The notes under the pieces: generated by a model
The model's database searches: none
What the model saw: only the letters and a program-made list of their open reading frames with translations
What the model was told of the DNA's origin: nothing
Made by a program: the position numbers and the translations under genes
Part shown: positions 32,759 through 47,713 of the stretch, one piece after another
Numbering within the stretch: position 1 is the first letter of the stretch
How the letters are laid out: each line of letters opens with the position of its first letter
Assembly (NCBI GenBank): GCA_951828535.1
Contig: OX639990.1
Span: 2,901,300 to 2,965,299 of the forward strand
Source: an uncultured Candidatus Entotheonella sp.
Lineage (GTDB): Bacteria; Tectomicrobia; Entotheonellia; Entotheonellales; Entotheonellaceae
DNA length: 64,000 nucleotides
Reading direction: 5' to 3'

Positions 32759-33862
32759 TTAAAACACCGGGATGATGTCCTGCGGGTCGATCGCTACGGT
32801 TTTGCCATCGACGCCGACCTCCGGCAGAGCCGGAAATTCCACCCCGTACGGCTCCAGAATGCCCTTCAGCCGCAGCACTGCGGCGCGCCAGTTCTCGGCC
32901 CGCTCATCCTCCGTCAGAATGCCCAGCCCGGCGGCACGGGCCGTTTCTTCCAGCATTCGGTGTGCCGGTCGGAAGGTTGGGCCAAGCTCCCAGAAGTCCG
33001 TGGGCGGCACGTACAGAATCCCCGACAGAAAGACGAACCCGGCGCGAATCTGCCGGGTGATGACGTCACGCTGCTCGTCGGTCAGGCGCGGCAGCACGTT
33101 GCGCAGCACGGCCAGGCAGATCGCCATGTGGCGCGCCTCGTCCTTGCCGATCATCTTGAACGCCTCTTTGAACGCCGGCATCGTGGTGCGCTGGTACATA
33201 CTGTGGAACAGCGTCGCCGCCGCCACCTCCCCCATCAGGAACGACGCGAACAGGATCGGCAGTTGAAACTTCGTGATGCCGTTCTTGAAGCCGGTCCAGT
33301 AGCGGCAGCCGTTGTGGTAATACCACTTGATGTTGTTGCGGGCGAGGCGGCCGAGGGGCGTTTCGGGCTCGTAGCCGAGCGGACCGTTGGGCGTCAGGAT
33401 CTGGATGGCGCGTTGGCAGACTTCCTCGTGGTTCACCTCGTCCCGCACGATCGAGAAGAAACATTTGCGCACCGGGTCTTCCTCGTGCGTTTCCCAGGTG
33501 TGGATGAAGGCGCGGGAGAACACCGCCGGGCCGGAGCCGTCGAACACCGACAGCAGGGTGAACCAGTACGCCATGGCGTAGCGTTCGTCCAGGGAGAAAT
33601 CGTCGGCTTTGAACGTGTCCCAGGGCAGGGTGTGGGGCGACCAGCCGGGGGCGCGGGCCTGGTCGTAAATCTGTTGTAGCATGGGCGTTTCGACCCGCCA
33701 TTCCAGGGGAAAGATGTTCAGTTCGGGAAAGGGCGGCGGTTCCTGGGTGTCGAAAAGCAGGGCAGCGGCGTCCGGTTGCGCGGCGCTGCTGTGCTCCGGC
33801 GGATTTTCGACGGCGCCGATCAGGTCTTGGGCATTGGGGCTGGACACAACGTCAGTCCTCAC
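32759..33862 (-). CDS. Ferritin-like di-iron oxygenase (R2/AurF-like)
   Basis: A 367-residue four-helix di-iron carboxylate protein. Ligand motifs come in order: E in HTWETHEED, ExxH in RDEVNHEEV, E in MGEVAAATLFH and ExxH in KDEARHMAI. This is the R2/AurF/ferritin-like arrangement that uses oxygen for oxidations or N-oxygenation. The start is GTG 33862, whose first bases overlap the upstream hydrolase stop (GTGA), so they are coupled. The substrate is unknown. Sitting with an alpha/beta hydrolase, an amidotransferase and an ABM protein suggests a small-molecule pathway. Confidence 0.8.
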   Translation of the reverse strand: MRTDVVSSPNAQDLIGAVENPPEHSSAAQPDAAALLFDTQEPPPFPELNIFPLEWRVETPMLQQIYDQARAPGWSPHTLPWDTFKADDFSLDERYAMAYWFTLLSVFDGSGPAVFSRAFIHTWETHEEDPVRKCFFSIVRDEVNHEEVCQRAIQILTPNGPLGYEPETPLGRLARNNIKWYYHNGCRYWTGFKNGITKFQLPILFASFLMGEVAAATLFHSMYQRTTMPAFKEAFKMIGKDEARHMAICLAVLRNVLPRLTDEQRDVITRQIRAGFVFLSGILYVPPTDFWELGPTFRPAHRMLEETARAAGLGILTEDERAENWRAAVLRLKGILEPYGVEFPALPEVGVDGKTVAIDPQDIIPVF

Positions 33863-37465: not shown

Positions 37466-37622
37466 ATTCCAGAACGGTGAATCGCTTTTCTTGACTCTGC
37501 ACCTTATCCAGCTGCAGCTGCGAAGAGAGATCACCGCCTTGACCTGCACAGGCCGTTCATCCAGAATGCTGCCGCGTTGGGCGTCGGAGACATGGGGTTG
37601 AAGAGTCGAGGAGGGTGAACGT

Positions 37623-38972
37623 ATGGACAGCCCGTTGCGCGTGGCGCATTACGTGAATCAGTTCTTTGGCGGTATTGGCGGCGAGGATGCGGCGAACGTC
37701 GGGGTGTCGCTCGAAAGCGAGCCCGTGGGCGCGGGCCGGGCGCTGCAACAGGCGCTCGACGGCGCGGGCAGCGTGGTGGGCACGCTGGTCTGCGGCGACA
37801 ACTACTTCAACGAGCGGGAAGCGGAGGCCGTGGCCGCCATCAAGGGGCATCTGGAGGCGCTGAAGCCGGACATCCTGGTAGCGGGGCCGGCGTTTGGCTC
37901 CGGGCGCTACGGGCTGGCGTGCGCCGAGGTTTGCAAGACGGCCCAGGCGCTGGGTATCAAGGCTATCAGCGGCATGCACCCGGACAACCCGGGGGCGCTG
38001 AGCGGCTGGCCGGACGTCGTCATGGTGCCGACCGGCGAAACGTCCGCCGACATGCCGCAGGCGCTGGCCGCCATGGTGCGGCTGGCGGGCAAGCTGGGCC
38101 GTGGCGAGGCGCTCGGACCGGCGGAGACCGACGGCTACATGCCGCGCGGCGTGCGGCGTGTGCATGACCGCCAACGCCCCGGCTACCAGCGCGCCCTCGA
38201 CATGCTGCTGGCCAAGCTCAAGGATCAGCCGTTCGTTACCGAGGTACCTATCCACGCGCCGGAAAAAGTCGAGCCCGCTGTGCCCGTCACGGATCTGTCG
38301 CGGGCCACCATCGCCATGGTCACCACCGGCGGCTTGGTGCGCAAGGGCAACCCGGACAAGCAGGTCGCCGCCAACGCCAGCCGGTATTACCGCCACTCGG
38401 TCGCCGAGCTGCAAAGCCTCTCCGGCGCCGATTGGGAAGCGTACCACGCCGGCTATTTCAACCACATCGTCAATTCCAATCCCAACTACATCCTGCCCCT
38501 CAACTTCCTGCGCGACCTGGAAGCCGACGGCCAGATCGGCGGCGTCTTCAGTTCCATCTACGCGCTGCCGGGCGTCGCCACGCCGGTCGCCATGTCGTGC
38601 GACTTGGGCCGCAGCATCGCCCAGGACCTTGTCAACAGCGGGGTTGACGGCTGTCTCCTGGTGGCCACGTGAGGCACCTGCAATCGTTGCGGTGCAACGA
38701 TCGCCAAGGAAATCGAGCGCGCCGGTATCCCCGTCGGCATGATCTCCGCCATCTATGACCTCGCCCTCACCACCGGCGCCGTCCGCGTCATCCGCGGCTC
38801 GCGCATCGAGCACGTGTGCGGCGACCCGAACCTCGGCCCCGAGAAGGATTACGCCTACGGCATGCGCATCGTGCGCACCGCCCTCGATGCCATCTGCACG
38901 CCGGTGCCCGGCCCGACGCTGTTCGACCCGCTGGAAAGGACGCCGGAGCAGGAGGTGGCGCATGCGTCTTGA
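37623..38972 (+). CDS. grdB: Glycine/sarcosine/betaine reductase component B, selenoprotein subunit (GrdB/GrdF/GrdH-like), Sec at codon 350
   Basis: A 449-residue selenoprotein read through an in-frame TGA at 38670-38672. The start VAHYVNQFFGGIGGEDAANV is the GrdB-family signature. The text around the TGA, GCLLVAT-U-GTCNRCGA then TIAKEIERAGIPVGMI, matches the UxxC site of GrdB/F/H, where Sec carries the substrate-activating redox centre. Without Sec the gene would stop at 349 residues and the conserved C-terminal 99 would be lost. A SECIS-like hairpin lies at 38683-38701. ATG 37623 has GGAGGG upstream. The stop overlaps the next gene by 11 bases. Whether glycine, sarcosine, betaine or another amine is the substrate cannot be told. 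Found mainly in Firmicutes, so transfer is likely. Confidence 0.93.
38683..38701 (+). promoter_or_regulatory. SECIS-like hairpin after the grdB Sec codon
   Basis: ATCGTTGC-GGT-GCAACGAT is a perfect 8-bp stem with a GGT loop, starting 10 bases after the TGA at 38670. The loop lies 19-21 bases after the TGA, and its first two bases are G. Bacterial SECIS elements sit just downstream of the UGA in the coding sequence and need a G in the first loop positions for SelB binding. Confidence 0.75.
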
Positions 38973-40251
38973 GATGGGCACCTTCCCCGTTGAGCGCATC
39001 ACCTTCGGCCCCGAAACCTGCTACGCGGACGGCCATCTGCAGGTCGACAAGGACGCCGTCGCCGAGGCGGTGCACGCCGACCCCCGCATCGCCAGCGTCG
39101 ATCTGGAGGTCGCCTATCCCGGCGAGTCCGCCCGCATCTGGCCGGTGCGCGACGTCATCGAGCCGCGCATCAAGGTGGAAGGTCCCGGCGTCATCTACCC
39201 CGGCACCGCTGGCCGCGCCATCACCACGGTGGGCGAAGGCCGCACGCACCGCCTCTCCGGCATGGGCATCACCGAGGTGTCGAGCGTCAACTGGCACGAC
39301 GCCGGCGGCGACTTCGTGGAAGTCTACCTCGACATGTCCGGTCCTTGGTCTGACCTGATTCCGCTGAGCCAACTCATCCATCTGTGCGCGGTCGTCGAAC
39401 CCGACCCCGGCCTCGGCAACGAGGCCCAGAATGACGCCGTGCACAAGGCGGCTCTGGTGGTCAACGATCAGGTCGCGGCGGCGACGCGCCATCTCACCCC
39501 ACCGCAGCAGGAAGTGTTTGAATTACGCGAGGTCGACCCCGGCCTCCCCAAGGTGATCTACATCTGGTGCGTGCACTCGCCGCAGGCCATGTCCGGCTCG
39601 CCCACGGCGTTCTGCACCACCACCTACGGCCTCACCCAGCTGACGCCGCCGTGGTTCCTGCACCCCAACGAAATCCTCGACGGCGCCCTCACCGGCCCGT
39701 ACCGCACGGCGTTTGCGATGTCGTGGACAGTGGCCAACAACCCGATGCTGCTTGATCTGTACCGCCGCCACGGCGTCGACTGGAATTTCCTCGGCGTCAT
39801 CGCGCTGCGCACCGAATGGACCACGCAGCACGAAAAGCAGCTCATGGCCAACCAGACGGCGAAGCTGGCGAAGTTTCTGGGCGCGCAGGGCGCCATGGTT
39901 ACCTGGGACGCCGGCGGCAACGAGTTCATCGAGGTCGTGCGCACCATTCAGGCCTGCGAGCAACTGGGCATCAAGACCGTCTTCCTGACCAGCGAGGACG
40001 ACGCCACCGAGGCCGCCCCGACCATGCTGGAGCCGCTGCCCGAGGCCAACGCCATCGTCAGCACCAGCTTCTTCAAGACGCGCACGCTGGAGGTGCCCGA
40101 CCTGCCGCCGGTGGATCGGGTTATCGGCCTGCAGCACAAGGACATCGGCCCGCTGCGGGACCAGCGCGTGCCGGCCGCCGGGCAACTGCCGCCGCCACCG
40201 CGCCACGACGATCACTATGGCTTTACCACCATGAGCTGTATCGAGTACTGA
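38962..40251 (+). CDS. grdE: Glycine/sarcosine/betaine reductase component B alpha/beta proprotein (GrdE/GrdG/GrdI-like)
   Basis: A 429-residue protein of the Gly_reductase family, the length of GrdE. In known systems the proprotein is split at a Cys that becomes a pyruvoyl group, which binds the amine substrate as a Schiff base. The likely counterpart is C218 in SPTAFCTTTYG; this placement is my inference. C-terminal landmarks are TQHEKQLMANQTAKLAKFLG and MVTWDAGGNEFIEVVRTIQACE. GGAGG lies 6 bases before ATG 38962. It overlaps grdB by 11 bases and is followed 22 bp later by grdC. It is cytoplasmic and forms component B with the selenoprotein. Confidence 0.9.
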   Translation: MRLEMGTFPVERITFGPETCYADGHLQVDKDAVAEAVHADPRIASVDLEVAYPGESARIWPVRDVIEPRIKVEGPGVIYPGTAGRAITTVGEGRTHRLSGMGITEVSSVNWHDAGGDFVEVYLDMSGPWSDLIPLSQLIHLCAVVEPDPGLGNEAQNDAVHKAALVVNDQVAAATRHLTPPQQEVFELREVDPGLPKVIYIWCVHSPQAMSGSPTAFCTTTYGLTQLTPPWFLHPNEILDGALTGPYRTAFAMSWTVANNPMLLDLYRRHGVDWNFLGVIALRTEWTTQHEKQLMANQTAKLAKFLGAQGAMVTWDAGGNEFIEVVRTIQACEQLGIKTVFLTSEDDATEAAPTMLEPLPEANAIVSTSFFKTRTLEVPDLPPVDRVIGLQHKDIGPLRDQRVPAAGQLPPPPRHDDHYGFTTMSCIEY

Positions 40252-40273
40252 CCCCGCCGCCCGAGGAACACGC

Positions 40274-41740
40274 ATGCAGCAGACGACAGTGCAGCCCGTC
40301 ATCCGGGGCGTGCGATTCTTCCTGGCCCACACCCCCGGGCTGGTACGCTACGGCTCCAAGCCCAGCCGCGATATCGACCGCGATCCGGCGGTAGGCGACA
40401 CCTTGCAAGCCCACCTGCGCGGCTACGCCGACGCCGCGGCCTACCCGCCCAATCAGGCCTTCCTCGGCGCCATCCACCCGGACGCTCTCGCCAGCCTGCC
40501 GACGCCGTGGTTCCGGCACGCCGGTTGCGGCGAGCGCTGGGGGCCGCACGGCGAGATCATGCCGGAGGAGGAGTTCTACGGCTGGCTGAAAATCGCCGAC
40601 GCTTTCAATCTCGTAAGTTTGGATACGGACTTCATCGAGTCCATCCGCCCGGCGCTGGACGCCCATCCGCTGTGCACGCCGGCTGACCTCGAGCAATTGG
40701 GCACGGGTGTTTCGCAGGCCGAACTCGATGCCCATTGCGCGCCAGGCACTGGCTTGGCGGGCGACATGCCCACCCTGCCCCTCTTTCTGCGCGACGGCTC
40801 CCGCATCGGCTGCTTCCACGCCGCCCACGAGGTAGACGCCACGCTCGCCGCCGATGTGCTACTCGAAAACCTGACCTGCAAGACGACCGCCGTTCTGGCC
40901 ATGCGCACCCTGCTGGCGCAGTTGCCCATCGACCCGATGGACATCCCCTACGTGCTCAACAGCGGTGAGGAAGCGGTGGGTGACCGCTACCAGCGCGGCG
41001 GCGGCAATCTGGCCAAGGCGGTGGCGGAAATGAGCGGCTGCCAGGCAGCAACCGGTGTCGATATCAAGGGCTTCTGCTGCGGCCCGCTGCACGCCCTGGC
41101 CATCGCCGGCGGTCTGGTCAGCGCCCGCGTGTTTCCGCACGTCGTCGTGGTTGGGGGGTGCGCCCTGTCCAAATTGGGCATGAAGTACCGCGGCCACGTG
41201 CAGCACGATCAGCCCATTCTGGAGGACGTGCTGGCCGCGGTGGCCATTCTGGTCAGCGCCGATGACGGCGCCTCCCCCAGGCTCCGGCTGGATTCCCTGG
41301 GCCGCCACACCGTGGCCGCCGGGCCGTCGCAGAAGGCCATCTTCGAGCAGCTCGTCAAGGAGCCTCTGCAACGCCTGGGCCTGAGCTTTGGGGACATCGA
41401 CAAATATGCCACCGAGTTGCACAACCCGGAAGTCACCGAGCCGGCGGGCAGCGGCAACGTGCCGCTCCTCAACTACCGCGTCATCGCGGGCCTGGCGGCC
41501 ATGGGCAAGGAAATCACCCCCGCGCAGGTGCCGGATTTCGTCGCCGCGCACGGCATGCCCGGCTTTTCACCCACGCAGGGTCACATCGCCTCGGCGGTGC
41601 CCTTTCTCGGCCACGCCGTGGACGGCCTGCGCGGCGGCGACTTGCAGCGCGTGCTGCTGCTCGCCAAGGGCAGCCTGTTCCTCGGCCGCATGACGCAGAT
41701 GGCCGACGGCGTGTCATTGCTTTTGGAGCGCAACGGTTAG
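40274..41740 (+). CDS. grdC: Glycine reductase component C, beta subunit (GrdC-like)
   Basis: A 488-residue FabH/thiolase-fold protein matching GrdC, which with GrdD releases the two-carbon unit from selenoprotein A as acetyl phosphate. Landmarks are IRGVRFFLAHTPGLVRYGSKP, IPYVLNSGEEAVGDRYQRGGGNLAKAVAEM, IKGFCCGPLHALAIAGGLV and PTQGHIASAVPFLGHA. The usual length is about 510. GAGGAA precedes ATG 40274. GrdD, normally next to GrdC, is not in this window. grdA follows 35 bp downstream. Confidence 0.9.
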   Translation: MQQTTVQPVIRGVRFFLAHTPGLVRYGSKPSRDIDRDPAVGDTLQAHLRGYADAAAYPPNQAFLGAIHPDALASLPTPWFRHAGCGERWGPHGEIMPEEEFYGWLKIADAFNLVSLDTDFIESIRPALDAHPLCTPADLEQLGTGVSQAELDAHCAPGTGLAGDMPTLPLFLRDGSRIGCFHAAHEVDATLAADVLLENLTCKTTAVLAMRTLLAQLPIDPMDIPYVLNSGEEAVGDRYQRGGGNLAKAVAEMSGCQAATGVDIKGFCCGPLHALAIAGGLVSARVFPHVVVVGGCALSKLGMKYRGHVQHDQPILEDVLAAVAILVSADDGASPRLRLDSLGRHTVAAGPSQKAIFEQLVKEPLQRLGLSFGDIDKYATELHNPEVTEPAGSGNVPLLNYRVIAGLAAMGKEITPAQVPDFVAAHGMPGFSPTQGHIASAVPFLGHAVDGLRGGDLQRVLLLAKGSLFLGRMTQMADGVSLLLERNG

Positions 41741-41775
41741 GCGCGAACGGACAACCCCGAAAGGAGGTTTATCGC

Positions 41776-42246
41776 ATGCAACTGCAAGGTAAGAAGATCA
41801 TTGCCCTGGGCGAGCGCGACGGCATCCAGGGCGGCGCTATCGCGCAATGCACGGCCAGCGCCGGCGCCGAGGTGGTGCTGGAAGTCACCCACTGCTTCGT
41901 TTGAACCGCCGCCGGCGCCCTTGACCTGGAAGGTCAGGAGGAGATCAAGCGGGTGGCCGAGCAATACCCACGCGAGGACATGGTGGTGGTATTGGGAACG
42001 CCGACTGCCGAGAGCAGCCGCCTGTACGCCCTGACGGTGACCGAGGGCGACCCCTCGTGGGCCGGCGCCTTGGCCGGCACGTCATTGGGGCTGCCCGTCT
42101 ACCACGTCACCGAGGAGGCGATCAAATGCCAAGTGTCACCGGAGGTGTATGAGGAACAGGTGACGCTGATGGAAATGGTGCTCGACGTGGCCGACATCGC
42201 CGACGCCGTGCAGGGCGTGCGGGACAGCAGCGCTCCAGCCGTATAG
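41776..42246 (+). CDS. grdA: Glycine reductase selenoprotein A (GrdA), Sec at codon 43
   Basis: A 156-residue selenoprotein read through an in-frame TGA at 41902-41904. The Sec motif THCFV-U-TAAGALDLEGQ is the GrdA motif (ECFVUTAAGAMDLENQ in clostridial GrdA). GKKIIALGERDGI before it and MVVVLGTPTAESS, TEGDPSWAGALAGTSLGLPV and LMEMVLDVADI after it follow GrdA throughout. In the reaction the Sec selenolate takes the carboxymethyl group from component B and, with C40, is re-reduced by thioredoxin. AAAGGAGGTT is an excellent ribosome site. A SECIS-like hairpin is at 41920-41938. No thioredoxin gene follows, unlike many clostridial operons. Confidence 0.96.
41920..41938 (+). promoter_or_regulatory. 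SECIS-like hairpin after the grdA Sec codon
   Basis: CTTGACCT-GGA-AGGTCAGG forms an 8-bp stem with one T-G wobble and a GGA loop. It begins 15 bases after the TGA at 41902, and the loop is 24-26 bases after it. As in the grdB hairpin, the loop is three bases long and starts with GG, the bacterial SECIS hallmark. Confidence 0.75.
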
Positions 42247-45361: not shown

Positions 45362-47713
45362 TCAGGGCGCCGGGAGCAGGCGCTGACGGGTTTCGGCCGC
45401 GGCCGTGATGTCGTCCCAGTCCCACAACTGCGGGAGGGTTTCAACCTCGGCCCACAGGGTAGCCTGGTCGGCGTAATGGGGGCTGCCCGGATGACCCGAG
45501 GCGCCCAGTGGCACGACCCAGCGAGAGCGGCGCCAGTCGGCAGGGTCGTGGATGTAGCGGTTCACGGACAAAGCGGTTAGGACGAAGCGCTCCGCGCCCC
45601 AACTGCTGCCCTGCAGCGGCGTGTCGCCGTCGCCACCGGCGGGAATCTGCGGCGGGTTGAGCAGGTCGGCGCAATCGGGGAAGACGCGCGACAGCGGGTG
45701 TTGCGGCCGGGTGCGGTGCAGCATGCTCCACTTCCAGGTCTGCATATCGTCGCCAAGACGCTGGCGCAGGTCGTCGACGGCGCGCTGCAGGGCGGCCTCC
45801 AGGCATTGCGGCCAAGTTTGGCCGGGTGGCAGGGGCGCGGGGTCGTTCGCCGCCATGGCGTGGACGGCGCGGGTATAGAGTTGCAGGGCGTGCGTCGGGC
45901 CGCCGCGGCCGGTGCCGGCGGTGCCAATGGCCTCGTCGGCGAACGGCCCGAGGGCGGTCTTCAGAACGTCTTCCAGCCAGCAGGCGCGCAGGGCGGCGTA
46001 GATCGTCGCGGCCACCGAGTCGCGGTCCATGCGGCAATCCCAGGCCAGCAGCCGTTCGTGCGCTTCGGCGACCCGGGGATCGGCGGGCAGCGGCGTTTGC
46101 GCGAGCACCTGCAGGCATATCTGCGCCGGACGCGACAGGCGGTCGGCGTGAACCGCGGCCATGTCCGCCACCGTGGCCGCGCCGGACGCCAGTTCCTGCA
46201 GGCGGGCCGTAACTCGCCGGGCGCGTGTGTCGGCACCGAAGTAGGTATTGATGTAATACGGGTAATCGGCGGGCGCCACGCCCTGATTGCAGGTGACGAC
46301 GTAGCCGGCGGACGGGTTGCGGGTCTGCGGCATGTCCTCGAATGGGATGTTGCCCTGCCATTCGTGCTCGCCGTCCCAGCCGGGGACGGCGGTCCAGGCG
46401 TTGGCCATGGGGCGGATGGGGATGCGTCCGCGGTAACGGTAGCCGAACTCGCCGTGCACGTCGGCGTAAACGAAGTTGTTCACCGGCTCCGTCCAAGGCC
46501 GCAGCGCCTCCTCGGCCTCGTCCGCCGAGTGCGCCCGCAGCAGGTCGTACAGCGTGTTGGCCCACGGGGTGCCGCTGTTGGTGCCGGGATGGCTGAAGGC
46601 GAGGCCGTGTCCGGCATGCGGATCGCCGGTAATGACGGGGCCGTGGCGAGTCGCCACCACCTGCAAGGTTTCCGACGCGCCGCCGCGTGCGTGCAGCGCC
46701 TCGTCGACGGTCTCGGCGGGTTGCCAATCCTGCTGCCAGGCGTATTCCAACGCGCCGCCGCGGCTGCGAAAGCGTTCAATGAACAGGTCCTGATAGTCCG
46801 CGTAGCCGTGCGTCATGCCCCAGGCGACGTATTCGTTGTGGCTGAAGTGCGGTGCGCCAGGAACCCCGGGCAGGGCGTAGCCGCTGACGCGGAATGACGG
46901 GCAGGCCACGTGCACTTGGTAATAGACGTTCGGCGTGTCGAGGGCGCGGTGCGAATCTCCCGCCACCAGCGGCAGCCCGGAGGCCGTGCGGTCGCCGGAA
47001 ATGACCCAGGCGTTGCTGCCGGCGTCCACCTCGCCCAGCCAGTTGCAGGCGGCGGCCGCGGCGGCCAGCTCGTCGAGGCACGACAGCGGCGGCCCCGTGT
47101 ACGCCTCGCCCGGCGGTACGGTCACCAGGCTGCCCTGCGGGTAGCCCTGGAAAAGCGCCGCAGCCCGCTCCACGCCGAGCCCGAGGGCCAGCCGCAGCCG
47201 CCACAGCTTCATCTCGAACGTTCCCATCAGCATGTTGCGGACCTTGTAGACGGCCAGACAGTGCCACGGCTCCCACGGCTCCGGGGTGGCCTGCAACAAG
47301 GTGTATTCGACCGGCAGGGTGCGGGTGCTGGCGAGGAAGGCGTTTACCCCGTCGCTGTAGGCCGCCAGCATGTCCCGCGCCGCGCCGCTTGCCACCTCGA
47401 GGTCCATGCGCGCTGCCCGCTCGACGCGAAACCGCCGCATCAGCCGGTCCTCCGGCAAGGCGCCCGGCCCGGCAAACTCGGCCCACCGCCCTAGCGCCCG
47501 GTGGCGGTCGTAATCCATATGCCACAAGCGGTCCTGAGCCATCACGAACCCCTGGGCGAAGAAGGCGTCGTGTTCGGTGGCCGACCGCACGTGCGGCACG
47601 CCCCAGCGGTCGCGGCAGATGTCAACCGGTTGTTCCAAGCCGGATAGCTTCAGCGTTGAGGTCACGTCAGGCAGGACATTTCGTAAATCGGATGGCGTCA
47701 GTCGGTGAGACAT
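45362..47713 (-). CDS. Penicillin acylase family Ntn-hydrolase
   Basis: A 783-residue amidohydrolase proprotein. The autoprocessing site is in DAGSNAWVISGDRTASG; S233 would become the N-terminal nucleophile of the beta chain. Other landmarks are DRWGVPHVRSATEHDAFFAQGFVMAQDRLWHMD and PGVPGAPHFSHNEYVAWGMTHGYADYQDLFIE. The family includes penicillin, cephalosporin and acyl-homoserine-lactone acylases. No signal peptide is seen, so it may be cytoplasmic, unlike many relatives. GGAGGT precedes ATG 47713. Confidence 0.92.
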   Translation of the reverse strand: MSHRLTPSDLRNVLPDVTSTLKLSGLEQPVDICRDRWGVPHVRSATEHDAFFAQGFVMAQDRLWHMDYDRHRALGRWAEFAGPGALPEDRLMRRFRVERAARMDLEVASGAARDMLAAYSDGVNAFLASTRTLPVEYTLLQATPEPWEPWHCLAVYKVRNMLMGTFEMKLWRLRLALGLGVERAAALFQGYPQGSLVTVPPGEAYTGPPLSCLDELAAAAAACNWLGEVDAGSNAWVISGDRTASGLPLVAGDSHRALDTPNVYYQVHVACPSFRVSGYALPGVPGAPHFSHNEYVAWGMTHGYADYQDLFIERFRSRGGALEYAWQQDWQPAETVDEALHARGGASETLQVVATRHGPVITGDPHAGHGLAFSHPGTNSGTPWANTLYDLLRAHSADEAEEALRPWTEPVNNFVYADVHGEFGYRYRGRIPIRPMANAWTAVPGWDGEHEWQGNIPFEDMPQTRNPSAGYVVTCNQGVAPADYPYYINTYFGADTRARRVTARLQELASGAATVADMAAVHADRLSRPAQICLQVLAQTPLPADPRVAEAHERLLAWDCRMDRDSVAATIYAALRACWLEDVLKTALGPFADEAIGTAGTGRGGPTHALQLYTRAVHAMAANDPAPLPPGQTWPQCLEAALQRAVDDLRQRLGDDMQTWKWSMLHRTRPQHPLSRVFPDCADLLNPPQIPAGGDGDTPLQGSSWGAERFVLTALSVNRYIHDPADWRRSRWVVPLGASGHPGSPHYADQATLWAEVETLPQLWDWDDITAAAETRQRLLPAP

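Follow-up and report, generated by a model that had tools for sequence, protein, structure and literature searches.

Glycine reductase is the textbook selenocysteine (Sec) enzyme of fermentation, where its purpose is ATP formation via acetyl phosphate, and GrdD carries the cysteine from which that acetyl phosphate forms. What does an operon of this type do, then, in a genome in which neither GrdD nor acetate kinase was found? The question is raised by four genes, grdB-grdE-grdC-grdA, at positions 37623-42246 of a 64-kb stretch of contig OX639990.1 (the whole stretch is referred to here as the window), which belongs to a Candidatus Entotheonella-like member of the Tectomicrobia. The operon almost certainly falls within the Grd (glycine/sarcosine/betaine reductase) superfamily and lies outside classical glycine reductase. 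The reading that we favour, with slightly less than even confidence, is that it encodes a modular, GrdD-less Sec reductase in which a carboxymethyl group would pass from component B to GrdA, and GrdC would then deliver acetyl-CoA instead of acetyl phosphate. Unusual here, and overlooked by the first-pass annotation of this DNA, are the missing GrdD, the presence of three GrdB paralogues in the host and its respiratory context.

All four genes are contiguous on the forward strand, with an 11-bp overlap between grdB and grdE and gaps of 22 bp (grdE-grdC) and 35 bp (grdC-grdA). The first-pass annotation had described such a unidirectional Grd operon with overlaps or gaps below 40 bp, and the coordinates together with the Pfam and NCBIfam matches, each read against the cut-off of its own model, bear this description out (Table 1). 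Superfamily membership is evident in GrdA with its CxxU Sec motif, in the GrdB-type Sec protein and in GrdC. Both selenoprotein frames contain exactly one in-frame stop, TGA in each case, at the family Sec position where the earlier annotation had placed it. The alignment with the GrdB and GrdA families that it had called for gave matches to the curated GrdA and broad GrdB models, and the window positions (GrdB 350, GrdA 43) correspond to the Sec sites of C. sticklandii GrdB (350) and GrdA (44) (PMC3091704). A second Entotheonella genome retains both TGAs, and the codon differences flanking each are mostly synonymous (8 synonymous and 3 non-synonymous 3' of the grdB TGA; 9 and 1 5' of the grdA TGA), in keeping with the claimed conservation of the frame on either side. 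The GrdA Sec codon is TGA in every relative that yielded the GrdA motif (64/64). The selenocysteine insertion sequence (SECIS) of grdB, a match to SECIS_4, is the sole Rfam RNA element across the whole 64 kb; the candidate hairpin of grdA gave no Rfam match at the gathering score. A search for Sec machinery, which the first-pass annotation had also proposed, recovered the full Sec-decoding trait in the genome: tRNA-Sec (selC, 73.9 bits), adjacent selA and selB, and selD. A lack of this machinery, which would have refuted the first-pass reading, is thereby excluded.

Several further observations concern Sec genes in these genomes. An AhpD-like gene (NGCPYC) lies directly 3' of selA-selB (L029:12126-12737). 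The selD matches of two Entotheonella genomes (G000:C1:3250621 and G001:C1:1729909) start at model position 6, contain no in-frame TGA and are located inside long open frames (775 and 853 aa), which may be fusions; selD of the related genomes G002, G003 and G052 carries a TGA. In the Tectomicrobia genome G052, a further in-frame TGA in the UGSC-family-like context GIGD-U-GSCSSSS (L062:14788), about 4 kb downstream of a grdB, possibly marks another selenoprotein.

The host genome, a 3.6-Mb single contig estimated to be 92% complete, was covered by family searches and by searches of individual stretches. It encodes a single PF02504 protein, which we identify as PlsX because it is located in a fatty-acid cluster (fabD-fabG-acpP-fabF); GrdD was not found genome-wide. 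Across 80 named loci with GrdC, grdD is positioned immediately 3' of grdC in 18, mostly in the order E-A-B-C-D, and the remaining loci are without grdD and mostly ordered E-B-C-A or B-E-C-A. A profile built from GrdD scored 500-595 bits in all 19 loci that have the gene (GrdD+) and matched none of the GrdD-less loci, of which 53 continue beyond grdC for over 1300 nt and nine end earlier. The number of PF02504 proteins is 0 or 1 in 13 GrdD-less genomes versus 2 in each of three clostridial controls. GrdD+ proteins form one clade of the GrdC tree (support 100/100), and the GrdD-less variant is common to many other non-clostridial bacteria, its GrdC proteins spanning Entotheonella, SAR202 and other Chloroflexota, Rokubacteria, Actinomycetota, 'Deltaproteobacteria', Burkholderiales, Planctomycetota and Bacillaceae. 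Because this tree is unrooted and its sampling is skewed toward relatives of the query, the pattern could reflect either one gain or one loss of GrdD. Acetate kinase was not found in the six genomes of the host class and its kin that were tested, host included, nor in 8 of the 13 GrdD-less genomes, and it was present in 3/3 controls; since the GrdD-less Bacillaceae have it, its absence is no rule for such systems.

One alternative is that a classical glycine, sarcosine or betaine reductase still makes acetyl phosphate here, with PlsX or an unrecognised protein in place of GrdD. We consider this unlikely, although GrdD is itself a PlsX-family (PF02504) protein, one PlsX is encoded in the genome and the window GrdC scores above the cut-off of the component C beta family. 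Five of the 13 GrdD-less genomes, one of only 1.1 Mb, are without any PF02504 protein, and PlsX therefore cannot stand in for GrdD in general. The host PlsX resides among fatty-acid genes and is unmatched by the GrdD profile, and there is no acetate kinase to consume acetyl phosphate.

Transfer to CoA, as we propose, would be a plausible reaction for GrdC given its predicted structure. The AlphaFold model of GrdC (mean pLDDT 91) matches KAS III/thiolase-fold enzymes, FabH with acetyl-CoA among them (Foldseek E 3e-10), and VIA-align Z-scores are 20.6-22.6 over ~260-295 residues for the 50 best entries. In sequence profiles C268 aligns with the active-site cysteine of FabH (E 8e-6), so that both the fold of this family and its nucleophilic cysteine are present in the predicted model. 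All 83 GrdC proteins have both C268 and H437. The hhalign comparison of GrdC with E. coli FabH gave an alignment confined to the cysteine region; based on residue order and strand pattern, H383 and H437 may be the counterparts of the FabH histidine and asparagine. GrdC proteins also differ according to the presence of GrdD: R238-Y239 occurs in 65/65 GrdD-less proteins, whereas GrdD+ proteins have Met238 (18/18) and Asn239 (17/18), and K29 and K304 likewise distinguish the two groups. Position 383 is histidine in 60 of the 65 GrdD-less proteins and glutamine in all 18 GrdD+ proteins, and with five exceptions H383 was demoted to a partial marker. For GrdB and GrdE, no solved structural relative was found apart from weak PyrR matches to GrdB.

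The GrdE-like subunit bears on the substrate. In C. difficile GrdE the pyruvoyl group is made from Cys242 (PMC9908766), which corresponds in our alignment to the cysteine of an SGNC motif (residue 242 of Caloramator GrdE). In the window GrdE this motif is replaced by TGPY, and the pyruvoyl-forming cysteine is likewise gone from the other two GrdE paralogues of the host, so the window GrdE is not the pro-protein typical of glycine reductase. This cysteine is kept in 15/17 GrdD+ GrdE proteins versus 5/57 GrdD-less ones (replaced in 52). The substrate-specific models all scored below their cut-offs: 370 of 602 bits for glycine GrdB (a control GrdB passed with 685), 396 of 800 for sarcosine GrdF, 210 of 780 for GrdG, 359 of 775 for betaine GrdH and 120 of 675 for FarE of fluoroacetate reductase. 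Because the pyruvoyl-forming cysteine is missing and every such model falls short, glycine or sarcosine is an unlikely substrate; a substrate that can do without activation through a Schiff base is more probable than glycine. The first-pass assignment to the Grd-type Sec reductases holds, and the same evidence weakens the suggestion that the operon could reduce an amine such as glycine.

A detoxifying or dehalogenating enzyme resembling fluoroacetate reductase would also fit an unprocessed GrdE; in such an enzyme the acetyl group would be hydrolysed to acetate, and the purpose would be removal of the leaving group or disposal of electrons rather than gain of carbon. FarE is likewise without the processing cysteines, a feature in which it is said to resemble betaine GrdI (PMC10838667), and the window GrdE is weakly FarE-like. 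This score is, however, far under the FarE cut-off, the window GrdB retains a UxxC-type motif (UGTCNRCG) whereas the conserved CxxC residues are reportedly missing from FarB, the operon has no counterpart of the farACEB transporter and radical SAM genes, and the conserved KAS-type cysteine suggests thioester transfer over hydrolysis. We regard this explanation, too, as improbable. Still less probable is an ordinary betaine or sarcosine reductase that is divergent in sequence only: GrdI is reported to be no pro-protein either (PMC10838667), and GrdF is the best-scoring substrate-specific model for the window GrdB, yet the GrdF, GrdH and glycine GrdB scores all lie below cut-offs of which the glycine one is passed by the control, and GrdD is missing. 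Pseudogenes or assembly errors as the origin of the two TGAs, in favour of which a Sec-unaware gene finder would break both genes, are already refuted, and chance is ruled out as well, since the TGAs are conserved in independent genomes with selection on both sides, a SECIS and full Sec machinery.

The modular part of the reading that we favour comes from the host genome, which has one GrdA and three full-length GrdB proteins, each with a Sec TGA and its own adjoining GrdE homologue: the window copy (U-GTCN) and those at contig positions 1576174 (U-GSCN) and 203980 (U-GTGT). A common A/C pair served by several B components is known from other bacteria (PMC10838667). Similar arrangements occur in relatives, as genome G003 of the same family has a grdC-grdA pair without grdBE and a grdB elsewhere, and the Tectomicrobia genome G052 has three GrdB/GrdE loci plus a separate grdC-grdA pair. 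Where the examined GrdD-less loci have a gap between grdC and grdA, it mostly contains a thioredoxin gene. The neighbours of the three host GrdB loci include no consistent transporter or enzyme hinting at a substrate.

Other observations were made around Grd loci. A GrdB paralogue with U-GTGTRSG, from which the usual cysteines after Sec are gone (UxxC lost), occurs in Entotheonella relatives (L056:8977-10041, L058 and L059). A protein of 424 aa (L057:5059-6333), encoded roughly 3 kb upstream of the host's second GrdB locus, has two ferredoxin-type motifs rich in Cys and looks by eye like reductive-dehalogenase-like Fe-S proteins. In G003, IscB-type-like (RRXRR/HNH) open reading frames lie upstream of grdB (L059:6783-8036), and no grdE was found nearby. 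In Rokubacteria (L098:957-2513), the gene after a GrdE close to that of the window appears to encode a family-5 (peptide/opine-type) ABC substrate-binding protein, and G004 (L025:1992-4594) has an apparent family-5 ABC substrate-binding protein and permease after grdC-grdA; these genes are a possible substrate clue.

The host had been described as Pseudomonadota-like, which is wrong: it belongs to Tectomicrobia/Entotheonella, and a genome of the same genus is named 'uncultured Candidatus Entotheonella sp.' (OY282375.1). Its genome contains three heme-copper oxidase genes, one of which adjoins a subunit II gene bearing the CuA motif CAELCGPGHSGMKG, and this pairing makes aerobic respiration by the host likely.

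Based on these features, we hypothesise that component B, formed by GrdB with Sec350 and the unprocessed GrdE-like subunit, binds a small X-CH2-COO- compound. As leaving group X, a halide or an onium group (quaternary ammonium or the like), which needs no Schiff base, would be more likely than glycine's free amine. The GrdB selenolate would displace X, and the carboxymethyl group would move to Sec43 of GrdA, from which thioredoxin-type thiols and the GrdA CxxU motif would release it, in acetyl form, to GrdC Cys268. As GrdD is missing, GrdC would hand this group to CoA (or a carrier protein) rather than to phosphate; we infer CoA as the most straightforward acceptor when a KAS III-type acyl enzyme works without GrdD. 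The acetyl-CoA produced would feed respiratory metabolism, and the one GrdA and the GrdC of the operon may be common to all three B components, which would act on different substrates.

Several points weigh against this proposal. Five GrdD-less GrdC proteins carry Gln383 as GrdD+ proteins do, and four of these are deltaproteobacterial with a glycine-type GrdE. The GrdC tree separates GrdD+ from GrdD-less proteins at one split, so the residue differences between the two groups need not be functionally linked. The acetyl acceptor could instead be a carrier protein, phosphate via PlsX, or water. No transporter or substrate-defining gene adjoins the operon within the window, and oxygen respiration is deduced from genes. 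The incompleteness of the host genome could have hidden a grdD; yet the second Entotheonella genome, also a single contig, is without GrdD as well.

Table 1. Features of the grdB-grdE-grdC-grdA operon (window coordinates).
Feature	Position	Strand	Evidence
SD-like GGAGGG upstream of grdB	37610..37615	+	read in sequence
grdB-like, substrate-specific selenoprotein B, 449 aa with TGA readthrough	37623..38972	+	PF07355 (GRDB) 1.4e-113; TIGR01918 418 bits, cut-off 65
grdB Sec codon TGA (VAT-U-GTCNRCG), codon 350	38670..38672	+	sequence; kept in relatives
SECIS directly 3' of grdB TGA	38673..38710	+	Rfam RF01990 SECIS_4, 42.9 bits, cut-off 38; hairpin -14.5 kcal/mol
grdE-like component B subunit, 429 aa	38962..40251	+	PF09338 (Gly_reductase) 9e-77
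grdC-like, component C subunit beta, 488 aa	40274..41740	+	NF040746 591 bits, cut-off 450
SD-like AAAGGAGG upstream of grdA	41760..41767	+	read in sequence
grdA-like selenoprotein A carrier, 156 aa with TGA readthrough	41776..42246	+	PF04723 3e-60; NF040748 206 bits, cut-off 130
grdA Sec codon TGA (CFV-U-TAAGALDL), codon 43	41902..41904	+	sequence; kept in relatives
Candidate SECIS hairpin 13 nt 3' of grdA TGA	41918..41941	+	fold -17.4 kcal/mol for 43 nt, modest z -1.76

As the first-pass annotation had anticipated, a gene finder without Sec decoding would break both grdB and grdA. The neighbouring trpEG genes were rejected as operon members because the gene ahead of grdB is another one in the second Entotheonella genome. 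Also near the operon are an AurF-like diiron protein, at the Pfam cut-off (window 32759-33862, reverse strand), and a penicillin-amidase/PvdQ-like acylase (window 45362-47713, reverse strand).

If our proposal is true, the GrdD-less form, found without acetate kinase and with heme-copper oxidases, gives Grd chemistry another purpose, and annotations that presume acetyl phosphate and ATP in such genomes are wrong. The role of GrdC itself becomes testable, as does the question of which onium, halogenated and other acetate derivatives are consumed by these microbes, including chemically rich sponge symbionts. A broader and more doubtful extension is that non-clostridial Grd systems are mostly a GrdD-free, acetyl-CoA-ending branch in respiring, often aerobic bacteria that take C2 units from X-CH2-COO- compounds; the clostridial acetyl-phosphate form would then be derived, with a PlsX relative (GrdD) recruited once.

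The first-pass annotation had associated these reductases with anaerobic Firmicutes and suggested a new physiological setting. A non-clostridial setting has already been published: grdA and grdB are known from Deltaproteobacteria and Photobacterium (PMC1794560), from Shewanella MTB7 (PMC10059138) and from Chloroflexi/serpentinite lineages (PMC9751293), with further reports outside clostridia (PMC1088965; PMC2398784); it is the respiratory context that is unusual. The GrdD-less form as a separate type was not found in the open literature, to which our search was confined, where we met only GrdEBCA clusters without comment on GrdD. These are the clusters of Lost City metagenome-assembled genomes, from a hydrothermal vent, whose listed gene set is likewise without grdD; acetyl phosphate is assumed and the missing GrdD passes uncommented (PMC9469722). 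Fluoroacetate reductase FarEB of Synergistota likewise has a GrdE-like subunit without the processing cysteine and several B components per one A/C pair; the window system differs in keeping the UxxC-type motif, in having no farA/farC and in its low FarE score. In the betaine (GrdHI) and sarcosine (GrdFG) reductases, too, the B components use a common GrdA and component C, with GrdI being reportedly unprocessed, whereas the window proteins are far below the corresponding model cut-offs and no betaine transporter adjoins the operon. With clostridial GrdEABCD (C. sticklandii, C. difficile and P. acidaminophilum) the window system shares GrdA, GrdB, GrdE and GrdC homologues and the same Sec sites, but it is without GrdD, has the order B-E-C-A rather than E-A-B-C-D and a GrdE that has lost the pyruvoyl cysteine, and belongs to a host without acetate kinase and with heme-copper oxidases.

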